Assembly (NCBI RefSeq): GCF_006538885.1
Contig: NZ_BJLY01000001.1
Coordinates: 62,001 to 126,000 of the forward strand
From: Gluconobacter roseus NBRC 3990
GTDB taxonomy: Bacteria > Pseudomonadota > Alphaproteobacteria > Acetobacterales > Acetobacteraceae
DNA: 64,000 bases
Reading direction: 5' to 3'
This document shows, in pieces, positions 11,881 to 17,425 of this stretch (the stretch's first letter is position 1; each line of letters starts with the position of its first letter). A program made the position numbers and the translations under genes. The notes under the pieces were generated by a model. That model was given only the letters and a program-made list of their open reading frames with translations. It was not told the DNA's origin and made no database searches.

Positions 11881-12004
11881 GACGTTATCTCCTCTCAGCC
11901 GTACCGACTCTTCTGCAGGAGAGCGGAACAGGACTTCGAGTTAATAACGAACACAAACGCCTATTAAATAAAACAACTTTTGTTTATAGTTATTTTATGG
12001 GTAC

Positions 12005-13000
12005 TCAGGCCAGCCCGTCAAAGAGCTGTGTGGAGAGGTAGCGTTCCGCGAAGGACGGGACGATGGCCACGATCGTTTTACCCCGGCTGGAGGGCTTGCG
12101 GGCCAGTTCCATTCCCGCAAACAGCGCGGCACCCGACGAAATCCCGATGGGGATGCCTTCAACCGCTGCACACAGCCGTGCCGTTGCCACGGCTTCCTGT
12201 TCGGAAACTTCGAACACGCCGTCCAGCGCCTTGAGATCCAGCGTATCAGGCTCGAAACCCGGGCCGATGCCCTGAATGCCATGCGGGCCGGGCTCGTCGC
12301 CATGCAGCACGGCACTTTCGCGCGGTTCCACACCGTAGACCTTGATGGATTTACGATGTTTTTTCAGGCCATGGGCAATGCCGGATGCCGTACCCCCCGT
12401 GCCCAGACCGGCCACGACCATATCGACCTTGCCTGCCGTATCTTCCCAGATTTCCTGGGCCGTCGTGGCTTCATGCACGGCCGGGTTGGCGTCGTTTTCG
12501 AACTGGCTCGGCATCCAGGCGTCAGGCAGGGTGCGGTTGAGCTGCTCGGCGCGTTCAATGGCGCCGGCCATGCCGCGGGATGCAGGTGTCAGTTCAGTAT
12601 CCGCGCCCATCAGGCGCAGCATCTTGCGGCGCTCGGTCGAGGCGTTTTCCGGCATGGTGACGATCAGGCGGTATCCCAGCGCCACGGCCGCGAAAGCAAG
12701 CGAAATACCGGTATTGCCCGAAGTCGGCTCGATCAGGACCGTGCGGCCCGGCGTAATCAGGCCGCGCGCTTCGGCATCCCGCAGCATGGCCACGCCAATC
12801 CGGTCCTTGACGGAGCCGAGCGGGTTGAAAAATTCCAGCTTGAGGAGTAGCCGCCCGTTGAGATGCTCACGCTGGGTCAGATGTGGCAGCGCGACAAGCG
12901 GTGTGCCTCCCACCGTCTCCAGAAAGGAGTTGAAAACGCGTCCCCGGGGGGCGGCATAACCTTCGAACGGGGCGGGGGACAGCGGAACCTTCTTGCTCAT
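12005..13000 (-). CDS. cysK: cysteine synthase (O-acetylserine sulfhydrylase)
   Basis: A 331-residue PLP enzyme that makes cysteine from O-acetylserine and sulfide. The PLP lysine is in NPLGSVKDRIG (K65), the substrate loop is EPTSGNTGIS, and the phosphate-binding glycines are in GTGGTASGIAHGLK. The C-terminal half has VEPRESAVL and SSGAALFAG. I prefer the ATG at 13000 (MSKKVPL), preceded by AGTGAGG, over the ATG at 13015. It is divergent from a candidate Cys/Met leader peptide and transporter operon, hinting at a local sulfur-metabolism theme. Confidence 0.93.
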   Translation of the reverse strand: MSKKVPLSPAPFEGYAAPRGRVFNSFLETVGGTPLVALPHLTQREHLNGRLLLKLEFFNPLGSVKDRIGVAMLRDAEARGLITPGRTVLIEPTSGNTGISLAFAAVALGYRLIVTMPENASTERRKMLRLMGADTELTPASRGMAGAIERAEQLNRTLPDAWMPSQFENDANPAVHEATTAQEIWEDTAGKVDMVVAGLGTGGTASGIAHGLKKHRKSIKVYGVEPRESAVLHGDEPGPHGIQGIGPGFEPDTLDLKALDGVFEVSEQEAVATARLCAAVEGIPIGISSGAALFAGMELARKPSSRGKTIVAIVPSFAERYLSTQLFDGLA

Positions 13001-13195
13001 GGCCTCACTTAACATGCGAAATGGGGAAAAGGGCAGACGGTAAATGATGATTTCCGTTACAACGAAACAATAGCGTTATTATGGGCGGGGCGTCGATATC
13101 ACATCATGTTCATGCGTTATATATTGACGGCATGCCGCAGGCCGTCGTATCTGACAGCCTCCAGTGGCATCCACAGCAACAGGACCAGTCGGTCA

Positions 13196-13276
13196 ATGAT
13201 GTGTCGAATGTGTAGCACGCAGCGCAAACGCTGCTCCGCTTCAGGTCCGGAGGCAAGTGTCTCCGGCGTGTCATAA
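13196..13276 (+). CDS. candidate Cys/Met-rich leader peptide
   Basis: A 26-codon ORF whose first residues are MMCRMCSTQRKRC: three Met and three Cys within 13 codons. The stop (TAA, 13274-13276) lies two bases before the stem of an intrinsic terminator. An ACAGGA lies about 11 bases upstream of the first ATG. The layout (short ORF dense in scarce-amino-acid codons, alternative hairpins, terminator, then a transporter operon) is that of a transcription attenuator. Its translation and function are inferred; I know of no family match. Confidence 0.5.
   Translation: MMCRMCSTQRKRCSASGPEASVSGVS
13219..13234 (+). other. leader hairpin 1
   Basis: GCAGCG-CAAA-CGCTGC is a perfect 6-bp stem with a tetraloop, inside the candidate leader ORF and covering its third Cys codon. 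Confidence 0.45.
13247..13266 (+). other. leader hairpin 2 / possible antiterminator arm
   Basis: CCGGAG-N8-CTCCGG is a perfect 6-bp stem. Its 3' end overlaps GGCGT (13265-13269), which can alternatively pair with ACGCC (13276-13280) in the terminator's 5' arm, so the two folds are mutually exclusive. Confidence 0.4.
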
Positions 13277-13277
13277 C

Positions 13278-13309
13278 GCCCGACAACTGGACTGTCGGGC
13301 TCTTTCTTC
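13278..13309 (+). terminator. intrinsic terminator of the leader (attenuator)
   Basis: A perfect 8-bp stem, GCCCGACA-ACTGGAC-TGTCGGGC, is followed by TCTTTCTTC. It lies upstream of the 65-aa gene and downstream of no larger gene on this strand, so it can only end a short leader transcript. Confidence 0.7.
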
Positions 13310-13322
13310 AGGGTCCGGCATC

Positions 13323-13520
13323 ATGCTTGGTTCAACAGTCATCGAAATCAACGGCGTCTTCCTCGGCGCGGCCATTCTGGTCAGCGAGAGCGGGACGAGA
13401 CGCTTCTATGCCGCGCATGACAGCGTGCGCGCGCTCCATAACGAACTCCTTCCCGATCTGGTCGCGCTTCAGCAGCGCATCCGTCTGCATGTGCGCAGGC
13501 CAGCCTATCAACTGGTCTGA
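13323..13520 (+). CDS. 65-residue protein of unknown function
   Basis: I do not recognise this gene. It encodes a 65-residue protein starting MLGSTVIEINGVFLGAAI. A short beta-hairpin-like N-terminus (INGVFLGAAILVSESGTRRFYAA) is followed by a charged helix (VRALHNELLPDLVALQQRIRL). There is no signal peptide or Cys. It begins 14 bases after the attenuator T tract and ends 81 bases before a peptide-type ABC permease gene on the same strand, so it is probably the first structural gene under the attenuator. Codon usage looks normal for the window, which supports it being real. Confidence 0.55.
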   Translation: MLGSTVIEINGVFLGAAILVSESGTRRFYAAHDSVRALHNELLPDLVALQQRIRLHVRRPAYQLV

Positions 13521-13601
13521 TTGATAAAGACCCCCTTCTGTCCGGGCCCGTTCGTGCTGTAGAACAAAAAAGATCACGAACCGGAACGGATTGGAGCAGG
13601 C

Positions 13602-14573
13602 GTGGAAGGAAGTTATCGGCGGATTATCCGCGCTGTTCTGACGCGCCGTGACGGCGCTTTCGCGGCTCTGCTTCTCCTTTCCATCGTCCTCGCCTGCCTG
13701 TCCGCTCCGCTTTATGCGTCGTTCAACGGGATTGACCCGTTTTCCTCCGACATCGCGGGGACGACGATCCGGAACGGGCAGCGCGTTGACCTCATGCAGC
13801 CGAATGACAATCCGCTTCATCTGGGTCTCAGTCCGATCGAACCAGACTGGCGGCCAGGGCCATATGCACTTGGGGCGGACTCGCAGGGACGGGATGTTGC
13901 AGCGCGCGTTCTGTATGGTGGCCGCAATTCCCTGCTGATTGCGGCCGCGTCTGCGACGTTCTGCCTGTGTCTGGCGGCCTGTATCGGGATCTGTGCGGGG
14001 TATTTCGGTGGCTGGATCGATCTGATCCTGTCGCGCATTCTGGATATGCTCTGGGCGATCCCGGTCTATCTGTTCGCGATTTCGCTGTCCGTTGTCACGG
14101 TGGGGCACGGTATCCGGCTTGGGCCTGTGACCATCGGGGCGGATAATCTGCTGATCCCGATCGGGATTATCGCGCTGGTCTATGTGCCCTATGCGGCGCG
14201 GCCATTGCGGGCACGGGCGCTGAGCCTGTCGCAGGCGGGGTTCGTCATGGCGGCGCGGGGGATGGGGGCGTCAGACTGGCGCATCCTGTGGCGGGAAATC
14301 CTGCCGGGGCTAACGCCGACCATGGCTGTTCTGGCACCACTGGTGATGGCGCTGTGCATGTTGGCGGAATCCGCACTGTCCTTCCTGTCGCTCGGCGTTC
14401 AGGCCCCGGCGGCGTCCTGGGGAACGATCATTCAGGACGGGGAAGGGCTACTCTATACGCGGCCCATGGTGGCCATCGTGCCGGGGCTGGCAATCGTTCT
14501 GACCGTTCTGGCGCTCAATGTTCTGGGCAATGCGTTGCGGGACCAGCTTGACCCGAAAGGAGCAGGCCGATGA
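13602..14573 (+). CDS. peptide/nickel-type ABC transporter permease (DppC-like)
   Basis: A 323-residue inner-membrane permease of the DppC/OppC family. It starts at GTG 13602, with GGAG six bases upstream. The N-terminal helix is LLLLSIVLACLSAPLYA. It has the family's periplasmic opening (PYALGADSQGRDVAARVLYGGRNSLLIA) and the ATPase-contact loop of the EAA type (AARGMGASDWRILWREILPG). The C-terminus LNVLGNALRDQLDPK is diagnostic. Its stop overlaps the next gene by 4 bases (ATGA). The substrate cannot be read from the sequence; no binding-protein gene is in the cluster. Confidence 0.9.
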   Translation: MEGSYRRIIRAVLTRRDGAFAALLLLSIVLACLSAPLYASFNGIDPFSSDIAGTTIRNGQRVDLMQPNDNPLHLGLSPIEPDWRPGPYALGADSQGRDVAARVLYGGRNSLLIAAASATFCLCLAACIGICAGYFGGWIDLILSRILDMLWAIPVYLFAISLSVVTVGHGIRLGPVTIGADNLLIPIGIIALVYVPYAARPLRARALSLSQAGFVMAARGMGASDWRILWREILPGLTPTMAVLAPLVMALCMLAESALSFLSLGVQAPAASWGTIIQDGEGLLYTRPMVAIVPGLAIVLTVLALNVLGNALRDQLDPKGAGR

Positions 14574-15553
14574 TCCGCAGTCTTGCCTCCCGGACCGGGC
14601 AGATGCTGCTGGTCATTTTTGGAATTTCGGTTCTGGTGTTCTGCATTTTCTTTGCGACACCGGGGGCGGACCCGACGGCGCGCATTGCAGGCCGGGGCGC
14701 CAGTCCGCAGGTCGTGGAACGCATCCGCGCGGAATATGGATTCGATCGTCCGCTGCCCGTTCAGTACGTAAAAATGATGGAAAAGCTGTTCGTCACCCGG
14801 GACCTGACGTCCTTCGTCAATCACGGGCAGCGCGTCGTGCCCGAGGTGTTGCAGGCAGCCCCTGTAACGCTCTCGCTGGTGCTGTGGGCGGCGTTTTTCT
14901 GGGTCAGCGGATCGCTGGTGTTCGGGATTGCGTCGGCTGTGCTGCGCGACAGCTGGGTGGACCGGCTGCTGATGGTTCTGGGGCTGATCGGGCTGTCCAT
15001 GCCGGTGTTCTGGCTGGGCGAGGTCGTCAATCTCGTCACGCAGAGCCGCTGGCATGACACGTTCCTGTTTCGCTGGGTGCCGCCACTCGGATATGTGCCG
15101 TTTTCGCAGAGCCCGTGGGGCTGGGCGAAGGCACTTTTTCTGCCGTCCCTGACGTTGGCGGTGTGTTTTATCGGTCTGTATGCGCGGGTCCTGCGCTCCG
15201 AACTGCTGACCGCCATGGGCGAAGACGCCATCCGCACGGCGCGCGCCAAGGGTGCGGGACCGGTGCGCGTGTGGCTGTGGCATGGTCTGCGGCTGTCCTG
15301 GCTGAGTTATATTTCGCTGTTCGGGCTGGATTTTGCGCAGCTTCTGGGCGGCGGCGCGCTTCTGACGGAAGTCGTGTTCGCCATGCCGGGTGTGGGGCGG
15401 CTGACCTATCAGGCGCTGGCGACGCTCGACCTGCCGCTCATCATGGCGACGGTCATGTATGCCGCTGTTTTTGTCGTCATCGCCAATGCGTTGGTGGACG
15501 GGCTCTATGCCCTGCTGGACCCGCGGATCATGGAGGGACGGCATGGGCGCTGA
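14570..15553 (+). CDS. peptide/nickel-type ABC transporter permease (DppB-like)
   Basis: A 327-residue permease of the DppB/OppB family. It has an N-terminal helix (MLLVIFGISVLVFCIFFATPG), then the conserved periplasmic segment DPTARIAGRGASPQVVERIRAEYGFDRPLPVQY and the coupling loop RTARAKGAGPVRVWLWHGLRLSWL. The C-terminal membrane part (LLGGGALLTEVVFAMPGVGRLTYQALATLDLPL) is typical. It is translationally coupled to both neighbours: ATGA overlap upstream, and the ATPase gene starts inside its last codons. Confidence 0.9.
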   Translation: MIRSLASRTGQMLLVIFGISVLVFCIFFATPGADPTARIAGRGASPQVVERIRAEYGFDRPLPVQYVKMMEKLFVTRDLTSFVNHGQRVVPEVLQAAPVTLSLVLWAAFFWVSGSLVFGIASAVLRDSWVDRLLMVLGLIGLSMPVFWLGEVVNLVTQSRWHDTFLFRWVPPLGYVPFSQSPWGWAKALFLPSLTLAVCFIGLYARVLRSELLTAMGEDAIRTARAKGAGPVRVWLWHGLRLSWLSYISLFGLDFAQLLGGGALLTEVVFAMPGVGRLTYQALATLDLPLIMATVMYAAVFVVIANALVDGLYALLDPRIMEGRHGR

Positions 15554-16496
15554 CGCTCTTTTAAAGCTGCATCACCTGCATCTGGAACTGCCGAACGGGA
15601 CGGCTCTTCTGGAAGATGTGTCCCTGACCGTTCGGCGCGGGGATGCGCTGGGCGTGGTCGGGGAGTCCGGGTCCGGGAAGAGCCTGACGGCCATGAGCGT
15701 TATGGGACTGCTGCCCGGTTTGAAGGCTACGGGCTCCATCCGTTTCGAGGGGCGTGAACTTCTGGGGATGAAGGATCGAGAGTGGCGGCGTCTGCGTGGT
15801 GCGGGCATGGCCATGATCTTTCAGGACCCGATGACGGCGTTTCTACCGGTCCGCTCCATCGGTGCGCAGATCGACGAACAGATCCGGCTGCATGAGCGCG
15901 TCAGCCGTCGTGAAGCACGGGCGCGGACCGTGGCTCTGCTGGGACGGATGGGTGTCCCCGACCCTGAAGCGGCGGCGAAACGCTATCCGCACCAGCTTTC
16001 CGGCGGTCTGCGCCAGCGCGCCATGATCGCGATGGCGCTGTCCTGTGACCCCGCGCTTCTGATCGCGGATGAGCCGACTACGGCGCTCGATGTCACGGTG
16101 CAGGCGCAGATCCTGACGTTGCTGTGCGAAATCCGTGACAGTGGGGCGGGTGTGATGCTGATCACGCATGACATGGGCGTGGTGGCGCAGACCTGCACGC
16201 ATGTGGCGGTCGTCTATTCGGGGCTTGTAGTAGAGCAGGGGCCGGTTGCGGCGGTCATGGCGCGGCCGCTGCATCCCTATACGCAGGCTCTGCTGGAAGC
16301 GATCCCGCCGCTGGATGGTCCGAGGCCGGATGCGCTGCCGACCATTCCGGGGCGTCCACCGGCTCCCGATGCGCGGCCGGAGAGCTGTGTTTTCGCCCCG
16401 CGCTGCCGGTTCGTGCGACCGGACTGTGCGGTGCGTCCTGCGTTGCGTGCACCGGAAGAAGGGCGGCGCGTGGCCTGCGTGCTGTACGACGCATGA
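15543..16496 (+). CDS. peptide-type ABC transporter ATPase (DppD-like)
   Basis: A 317-residue ATP-binding subunit. It has Walker A GESGSGKS, signature [15 protein letters not shown] and Walker [13 protein letters not shown], then the D/H-loop region. The C-terminal oligopeptide-type extension ([21 protein letters not shown]) carries spaced cysteines that can hold an Fe-S cluster in some members. The ATG at 15543 has GGAGGGA upstream and overlaps the DppB-like gene by 11 bases. It pairs with the next gene as the ATPase heterodimer. Confidence 0.92.
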
Positions 16497-17425
16497 CTGT
16501 TCTGCTTGAAGCGAAAAACCTCAGTAAACACTACCGCCTGTCGCATGGGGAAACCCTGCGGGCCGTAAGCGATGTGTCATTGGTCGTGCATCGCGGGGAG
16601 GCGCTTGCGCTGGTCGGGGAGTCCGGCTGTGGCAAGTCCACGCTGGGGCGGACGCTGATCGGGCTGGGGGCGCCGAGTTCGGGCGCCGTGTTTTTTGAGG
16701 GCGAGCGGATTTCCGGCCTGTCAGACCGGGCGCTGCGGCGCTGGCGGTCACGGATGCAGATGGTGTTTCAGGACTCGTCCTCGACGTTCAATCCGAGACG
16801 TACCATCGGTGACACGCTGGCGGAGCCGATGCGGATCCATGGACGGACCGGCATTGCGGAGCGGATCGGGACGCTGCTGGAACAGGTGGGCCTGTCGTCG
16901 TCCGTCCTGTCCCGTTATCCGCATGAGTTCTCAGGCGGGCAGCGGCAGCGTCTGAACATTGCCCGCGCCCTGATGCTGGGGCCGGATCTTCTGGTAGCGG
17001 ATGAGCCGACATCCGCGCTCGATGTGTCCGTGCAGGCGCAGATCGTGAATCTGCTGCGTGATCTGCGCAATTCGCTGGGTGTAGCGTGCGTGTTCATCTC
17101 CCATGATCTGGCGGTCGTGCGGCAGATGGCGGACCGGATTGCCGTCATGTATCTGGGGCGGATCGTGGAGGAAGGGGACGTGCTGGCGGTTCTGCAAGCT
17201 CCAGCCCATCCCTATACGCGCGCCCTTCTGGATGCGGTGCCCCGCCCGGACCGGCCCTTGCCGCCGCCGCTCAAAGGCGACGTGCCAAGCCCGATCAATC
17301 CGCCGCAGGGCTGTGCGTTTCATACGCGCTGTCCGCTGGCCCAGCCGCGCTGCGCGCAGGAACGGCCGGAGCTTCGGACGGTCGGGGAAGGGCGCAGGGT
17401 CGCCTGTCATTATCCGCTGCTCTAG
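16493..17425 (+). CDS. peptide-type ABC transporter ATPase (DppF-like)
   Basis: A 310-residue second ATP-binding subunit. It has Walker A GESGCGKST, signature FSGGQRQRLNIARAL and Walker B LLVADEPTSALD. It shows the DppF/OppF-type Q-loop (MQMVFQDSSSTFNPRRT) and a C-terminal CAFHTRCPLAQPRC extension. It overlaps the DppD-like gene by 4 bases. It is the last gene of the transporter block; xdhA starts 103 bases later on the same strand. Confidence 0.92.
   Translation: MTVLLEAKNLSKHYRLSHGETLRAVSDVSLVVHRGEALALVGESGCGKSTLGRTLIGLGAPSSGAVFFEGERISGLSDRALRRWRSRMQMVFQDSSSTFNPRRTIGDTLAEPMRIHGRTGIAERIGTLLEQVGLSSSVLSRYPHEFSGGQRQRLNIARALMLGPDLLVADEPTSALDVSVQAQIVNLLRDLRNSLGVACVFISHDLAVVRQMADRIAVMYLGRIVEEGDVLAVLQAPAHPYTRALLDAVPRPDRPLPPPLKGDVPSPINPPQGCAFHTRCPLAQPRCAQERPELRTVGEGRRVACHYPLL

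Follow-up and report, generated by a model that had tools for sequence, protein, structure and literature searches.

A short open reading frame (ORF) with conserved Cys codons, located upstream of an ORFan small-protein gene in Gluconobacter roseus NBRC 3990, most likely senses cysteine supply. Comparison of sequences across acetic acid bacteria indicates that the likely partner of this leader is the 65-amino-acid ORFan (p65) rather than the peptide transporter encoded further downstream. We give an even chance to the more specific proposal that the leader controls p65 translation in response to cysteine, with ribosome stalling at the Cys codons opening the p65 start site. The analysed stretch, called here the window, comprises 64,000 nucleotides of contig NZ_BJLY01000001.1, and its relevant features are collected in Table 1.

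Table 1. Features of the cysK-leader-p65 region, with positions counted from the first nucleotide of the window.
Feature	Position	Strand	Basis or remark
cysK (cysteine synthase A)	12005..13015	-	NCBIfam TIGR01139, 383.6 bits vs cut-off 350.95
Sigma-70-type promoter-like TTGACG-17-GTATCT	13124..13152	+	alignment of 18 genus loci
Leader ORF, 26 codons, MMCRMCSTQRKRCSASGPEASVSGVS	13196..13276	+	stop TAA 13274-13276
Rare-codon/Cys element CGA-ATG-TGT (Arg4-Met5-Cys6)	13205..13213	+	inside leader ORF
Further leader Cys codons	13202-13204 and 13232-13234	+	sequence
Hairpin P0, GCAGCG-CAAA-CGCTGC, within leader ORF	13219..13234	+	sequence and Gluconobacter rows
Hairpin P1, CCGGAG-8nt-CTCCGG, over ORF 3' end	13247..13266	+	sequence
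Hairpin P2 (terminator of the initial annotation), GCCCGACA-ACTGGAC-TGTCGGGC, then TCTTTCTT	13278..13300	+	8 bp, -13.6 kcal/mol
Hairpin P3, TGTCGGGCTCT-TTCTTC-AGGGTCCGGCA	13293..13320	+	-16.3 kcal/mol; over p65 ribosome-binding site
p65, 65-aa ORFan small-protein gene	13323..13520	+	likely regulated gene
Oligopeptide-type ABC operon, two permeases and two ATPases	13602..17425	+	NCBIfam Opp/Dpp/Gsi/Nik-type matches, all below cut-offs

The initial annotation of this DNA described a 26-codon ORF that faces cysK, contains two hairpins and ends next to a third. All of this holds: the ORF runs from the ATG at 13196 to the TAA at 13274-13276, with the post-stop hairpin beginning at 13278, the two internal hairpins (13219-13234 and 13247-13266) are present in the sequence, and the divergently transcribed neighbour is cysK by its TIGR01139 match (383.6 bits). 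The TTGACG box lies 72 nt upstream of the leader ATG, before which no clear Shine-Dalgarno sequence could be seen by eye at the usual spacing. The only Rfam match above gathering in the window is a tRNA, and the leader came nowhere near gathering.

Conservation of the ORF, proposed in the initial annotation as a check, was found with a 231-base DNA probe in 18 of the 26 genus genomes (own genome counted). At all 18 loci the Cys-bearing N-terminus M-CRMCS is encoded (some leaders start with MT or with a single Met), the reading frame is free of frame-breaking indels, and cysK lies on the other side of the leader. Four of the eight genomes unmatched at the DNA level, when viewed via their p65 locus, carry RMCGC or RMCRRC leaders beside cysK, and a diverged form of the leader occurs at two named Gluconobacter loci, L148 and L149. 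The gene cysK also adjoins the leader at seven further loci of an 80-locus p65 survey. The CGAATGTGTAGC stretch is almost invariant as DNA in Gluconobacter, and synonymous change in the leader is therefore unmeasurable there. The peptide pattern MCRMC was rejected as a leader marker, as it matches 74 of 299 family genomes and is not discriminating; among 30 such loci that were opened (L020-L049), none encoded CysK or transporter proteins. The upstream TTGACG is common to the 18 aligned loci at similar spacing. The expectation that a transcript starts between 13130 and 13196 agrees with this conserved promoter-like sequence, which would place a start there, while a generic promoter scan did not report the site and listed 13098-13125 instead.

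The gene directly downstream of the leader is p65 (13323-13520), and the transporter begins only at 13602. A search of GTDB contigs for p65 relatives gave 158 places, and the 80 that were kept belong to genera which we take to be acetic acid bacteria, a few of them as MAG records carrying such genus labels. A p65 profile matched 90 of 299 family genomes, many of them weakly. Pfam and NCBIfam searches returned no family for p65; its AlphaFold2 model is a compact beta-beta-beta-alpha-beta-alpha fold (mean pLDDT 88), for which a structure search gave no confident match. A leader was scored by rule as a short ORF within 260 nt upstream that contains in-frame CGA-TGY or CGA-ATG-TG[TCG]. The rule was positive at 47 of the 80 named p65 loci, two of which (L177 and L208) look spurious, compared with a mean of 4.4 and a maximum of 12 in 60 shuffled sets and two hits on the reverse strand. 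The 33 p65 loci that have no leader by this rule include many from Komagataeibacter, several from Novacetimonas and copies beside a SerA-like gene (by eye), as well as most copies of a second Gluconobacter paralogue. A search of the 299 genomes for the two halves of the element at variable spacing gave 33 places: exactly 12 nt separated the halves at 19 of them, 15 directly upstream of p65, and none of the 14 places with other spacings was upstream of p65.

The surroundings of p65 differ between lineages. No convincing leader was recognised at the second Gluconobacter paralogue (L353 at G000:C3:464044-464226, L170, L177, L196), which has a SelO-like gene next to it and biotin-type genes as further neighbours at L170, L177 and L196 (both by eye). 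In Gluconacetobacter and Nguyenibacter (L111, L116, L119, L152, L199) the leader-p65 unit is followed by groES and groEL, and at some of these loci peroxiredoxin-like genes are close by; these assignments were likewise made by eye.

The view that the peptide ABC operon is the target of the leader was not supported. Not only does p65 intervene, but homologues of the operon's permC, which a search at E <= 1e-60 detected in 36 of 150 family genomes, occur elsewhere without p65, cysK and the leader. When 30 permC loci were opened, p65, cysK and an MCRMC leader were found together only at the window's own locus, and the other 29 had neither p65 nor cysK alongside. Applied to the 700 nt upstream of these 29, the leader rule was positive at five, with unrelated peptides and at about the chance rate. 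Even among genus mates the arrangement varies: two of the 29 come from genus members (G003, G019) in which leader and p65 adjoin cysK and permC is elsewhere, and in a third (G014, locus L232) permC does adjoin p65. The ABC operon was seen next to the leader only within this genus. Its position behind the leader-p65 unit looks incidental, although read-through into it is possible in Gluconobacter.

To describe the coding element, 28 distinct leaders were picked by hand, a 29th (L179) being dropped because the script missed its start; leaders within one genus are not independent samples. CGA-TGY or CGA-ATG-TGN is present in all 28, partly by choice, as L169, L176 and L203 were selected because of their CGATGT, and each leader has at least one Cys codon among its first 14 codons. 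In 13 leaders, none of them among the seven Gluconobacter rows, CGA-TGT occupies exactly codons 10-11 and the remaining peptide differs. CGA is the preferred Arg codon here, used at 21 of 22 R-M/I-[CWR] sites and at 20 of 28 Arg-before-Cys sites. Elsewhere in these leaders it accounts for 8 of 59 Arg codons, and in the flanking ORFs, which were called by GC3, for 184 of 3195. A TTGAC box within 110 nt upstream of the leader ATG was found for 27 of the 28, in 13 cases at -74 to -70. A survey of the window's own genome (42 tRNA places) listed Arg ACG (two), Arg CCG, Arg TCT and a single Cys GCA, with tRNA-Arg TCG not found among these places; the list is incomplete, since tRNA-Ile and Ala-TGC are also missing from it. 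If its Arg part holds, CGA is read by the inosine tRNA. Of the two amino acids proposed as signals in the initial annotation, cysteine is favoured by the conserved Cys codons, and methionine is disfavoured because an internal Met is absent from four of the 28 leaders. Some leaders have Trp in the position of the first Cys, and the Arg codons are conserved as strongly as the Cys codons, so that specificity for Cys is tentative.

The RNA between the leader and p65 can fold in alternative ways. P2 and P3 have one strand in common and are mutually exclusive; P3, which buries the p65 ribosome-binding site, is the more stable (-16.3 vs -13.6 kcal/mol). The outer five of the six P0 pairs and the six-pair core of P3 are intact in all 16 Gluconobacter rows, and the pairs of P1 fail for L016 and L017-L019 in the MAFFT alignment, although by eye these loci have other sequences that look complementary. 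As to the compensatory stem changes suggested as a check, the P3 core is kept, but its changes are one-sided transitions easily tolerated by pairing. In the genus member L232 the P2 and P3 strands are different (TGCCGAAC, preceded by GTTtCGGTA and followed by GTTCGGCA), yet both hairpins are still possible by eye. A hairpin of -8 kcal/mol or lower begins 0-6 nt past the leader stop in 24 of the 28 leaders, although the best post-stop hairpin of single leaders often falls within the range of shuffled controls.

The predicted energetics of the p65 start site provide the strongest mechanistic evidence for a switch at the ribosome-binding site. The energy needed to open positions -14 to +3 of p65 was computed with the ribosome at different positions. 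RNA was treated as free starting 12 nt downstream of the Cys codon's first base for the stalled state, and at the same distance from the stop codon's first base for the terminating state. Over the 28 leaders, opening is predicted to cost a mean of 3.94 kcal/mol more in the terminating than in the stalled state; the difference is positive in 23, above 1 kcal/mol in 21 and negative in five. In 60 sets with the intervening RNA shuffled the mean was -0.36 kcal/mol, the highest set mean +0.45 kcal/mol, and at most 17 leaders were positive. The first version of the calculation, with a guessed Shine-Dalgarno window, likewise gave 23 of 28, and the difference is positive in nine of 11 lineage groups. 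The p65 start of the window itself is predicted to be closed in every state, at 9.7 kcal/mol with the ribosome at the stop and 8.3, 8.5 and 10.0 kcal/mol for stalls at Cys 3, 6 and 13. The resulting difference of -0.3 to +1.4 kcal/mol makes the window nearly indifferent to ribosome position, because P3 outcompetes P2, and its close relative L130 gives -0.4 kcal/mol.

These observations are compatible with the following scheme, in which a switch of the p65 ribosome-binding site is a plausible mechanism on the strength of the modelled folds. The TTGACG promoter-like site would drive transcription of the leader ORF. With Cys-tRNA plentiful, ribosomes would translate as far as the leader stop and so mask the 5' arm of P2, and the freed downstream RNA is predicted to fold over the p65 start (P3 in Gluconobacter), keeping p65 off. 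With Cys-tRNA scarce, a ribosome would stall at a Cys codon, allowing P2 to form and leaving the p65 start site, by the computed energies, more accessible. CGA, with tRNA-Arg(ACG) as the only matching tRNA found, would slow decoding at the stall site. The context of the locus suggests that p65 may be a protein of cysteine or sulfur shortage.

Three other explanations were weighed against this translational switch. The initial annotation proposed transcription attenuation, with P2 as the terminator, a stall at Cys13 letting GGCGT (13265-13269) pair with ACGCC (13276-13280), and read-through feeding the ABC operon and p65. In the window itself, P2 is terminator-like and has the most pairs among the six terminator-like sites in 12000-15000 (2.5 expected), GGCGT can pair with ACGCC, and the fold predicted for a ribosome stalled at codon 13 does use this pairing. 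Beyond the window the intrinsic terminator does not generalise. A U-tail (at least five T among the 8 nt that follow the post-stop hairpin) is found in three of the 28 leaders, all from Gluconobacter, and is lacking in the other 25, although terminator-like sites of some kind occur anywhere between the leader stop and p65 in 11. The fourth pair of GGCGT:ACGCC is intact in six of the 16 Gluconobacter rows. Of the hallmarks of trp/his-type attenuators, the U-tract terminator is missing from most leaders and the antiterminator is not conserved among these rows. Furthermore, the ABC homologues elsewhere have neither p65 nor a recognisable leader, and a ribosome standing on the leader stop would on its own mask the 5' arm of P2. 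We consider transcription attenuation unlikely, although in the window's own clade such a scheme may apply. In L169, L180 and L182 (Novacetimonas, G. entanii) six consecutive T precede the p65 start by about 20 nt and may mark a terminator in that lineage.

Arg codons as conserved as those for Cys, the Trp found in place of the first Cys in some leaders and the fixed position of CGA-TGT at codons 10-11 in 13 otherwise dissimilar leaders would also suit an arrest peptide. Stalling by the nascent RMC...RC peptide, or by the CGA codon, would then report another signal (a drug, a metal, arginine or oxidation) and not a shortage of Cys-tRNA. Typical arrest peptides are expected to share more residues than the few common to these leaders. 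The leaders of the distant relatives described below contain CCC runs without the Arg-Cys pair, and sulfur genes adjoin at some loci, both of which argue against such a peptide; this explanation appears improbable. It is more doubtful still that the ORF is untranslated, its conservation explained by RNA structure and the promoter alone. The near invariance of CGAATGTGTAGC as DNA and the want of a clear Shine-Dalgarno sequence by eye fit that idea, but the absence of frame-breaking indels at the 18 loci does not, nor does the nature of the element, whose two or three complete codons share their frame with a start and a stop in leaders that are otherwise dissimilar. We regard it as very improbable.

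Cys-rich leaders also occur beyond the family. A profile of weak p65 relatives from the same family (A5) matched 20 of 270 genomes of the class, the window's own genome among them. Twenty upstream regions were tested (L349, L353 and L356 were left out, and two genomes gave two each), and a short ORF with adjacent Cys residues, e.g., MTFTSRRFSPALIGAMRTCCCRT, was present in nine, compared with a mean of 0.84 and a maximum of 3 in 100 shuffles and one on the reverse strand. These leaders have runs of Cys (CCC) and no Arg-Cys pair. The sulfur-related neighbours tested were chosen by look, and their occurrence is a lead, not a rate. MetN was the best match of neighbours at L350, L351, L352 and L354 (323-430 bits, below the 499.7 cut-off), a TauD-like taurine dioxygenase at L352 reached 257 bits, also below cut-off, and L336 has an SsuA-type binding protein below cut-off and a weak taurine dioxygenase match level with another dioxygenase. 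O-succinylhomoserine sulfhydrylase at L273 scored above the cut-off, and other distant loci have neighbours that look unrelated.

When 20 related loci were scanned against Rfam, the sole matches were a tRNA and a SAM-II riboswitch, which both belong to L273 and lie away from the leader. The riboswitch (RF00521, 68.4 bits, L273:2608-2687, minus strand) immediately precedes the O-succinylhomoserine sulfhydrylase gene, in the neighbourhood of a distant p65 relative. SAM-II was considered as the element preceding the CCC leaders and rejected, since none was found there at gathering and a single sub-threshold match occurred at L352. Upstream of the Cys-rich leaders of L335, L338, L339, L340, L350 and L352 there is a shared element, GCTAAAGCGCCACG(A/G)C...GTCGTGG, forming a stem with a GCTAAAGC lead. 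It has no Rfam match above gathering and is possibly an undescribed RNA or regulatory element.

Translational attenuators of the ermC type free a sequestered ribosome-binding site by stalling in a leader, the signal being a drug together with the nascent peptide. The p65 leader would resemble them in the freeing of the site and differ in its signal, presumably Cys-tRNA. Mutually exclusive structures set by ribosome position, as in the ermC type, are predicted computationally family-wide, with the window alone nearly indifferent. Among Cys-codon leaders, the nearest described element, judging by the passages compared, is the uORFC-8-2 motif of Rhodobacterales, which lies upstream of cysS, usually has tandem Cys codons at positions 14-15 and a terminal U-run, and was proposed to act by ribosome-mediated attenuation (PMC8632094). 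As far as those passages go, both are alphaproteobacterial short ORFs with conserved Cys codons, but the leaders studied here have the CGA-Cys element, mostly no U-run and p65 as their target, and the Cys codons of the window are not tandem. The actinobacterial cys-operon leaders, in the part of the source compared, are Cys-codon short ORFs before sulfur genes that have no obvious terminators, carry Cys-codon runs near the stop and are suggested to involve Rho-dependent termination (PMC1262725). The p65 leaders share with them, on that account, a Cys-codon ORF mostly without an obvious terminator, whereas the Cys codons of the window leader are dispersed. The mycobacterial polycysteine leaderless short ORFs (Canestrari et al. 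2020, by title as cited in PMC13236596) are, as far as the title tells, similar in that a Cys-encoding upstream ORF controls downstream genes, and different in that here a promoter-like -35 box lies 72 nt upstream and there is no Cys run. The literature search found nothing on this leader or on p65: a term search of the main text of a G. oxydans RNA-seq study gave no relevant passage (PMC5756330), and cysteine is not mentioned in the passages covered of PMC10117765.

Cys-codon leaders are thus a kind already known. The p65 target and the CGA-Cys pair, absent from the described Cys leaders in the passages compared, appear to be new, with good comparative support from the sequences. A wider interpretation, which we put forward tentatively and at somewhat less than even chance, is that of an alphaproteobacterial cysteine-shortage circuit, in which p65 and its distant relatives would in many copies stand under their own lineage-specific Cys-codon leaders (many acetic acid bacteria having CGA-TGT at codons 10-11 and other lineages CCC runs), and a rare codon joined to a Cys codon at a fixed spacing from the start would act as a dedicated stall site that opens the ribosome-binding site. 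If this is true, many acetic acid bacteria would produce a small-protein family under cysteine shortage, and the distant relatives of p65 would adjoin methionine-type and sulfonate-type transport genes at some alphaproteobacterial loci. The leaders would also make it possible to study, in naturally occurring sequences, how ribosome stalling is tuned by a rare Arg codon that precedes a Cys codon. For p65 itself, an ORFan with no Pfam or NCBIfam family, the leader offers a handle on function.
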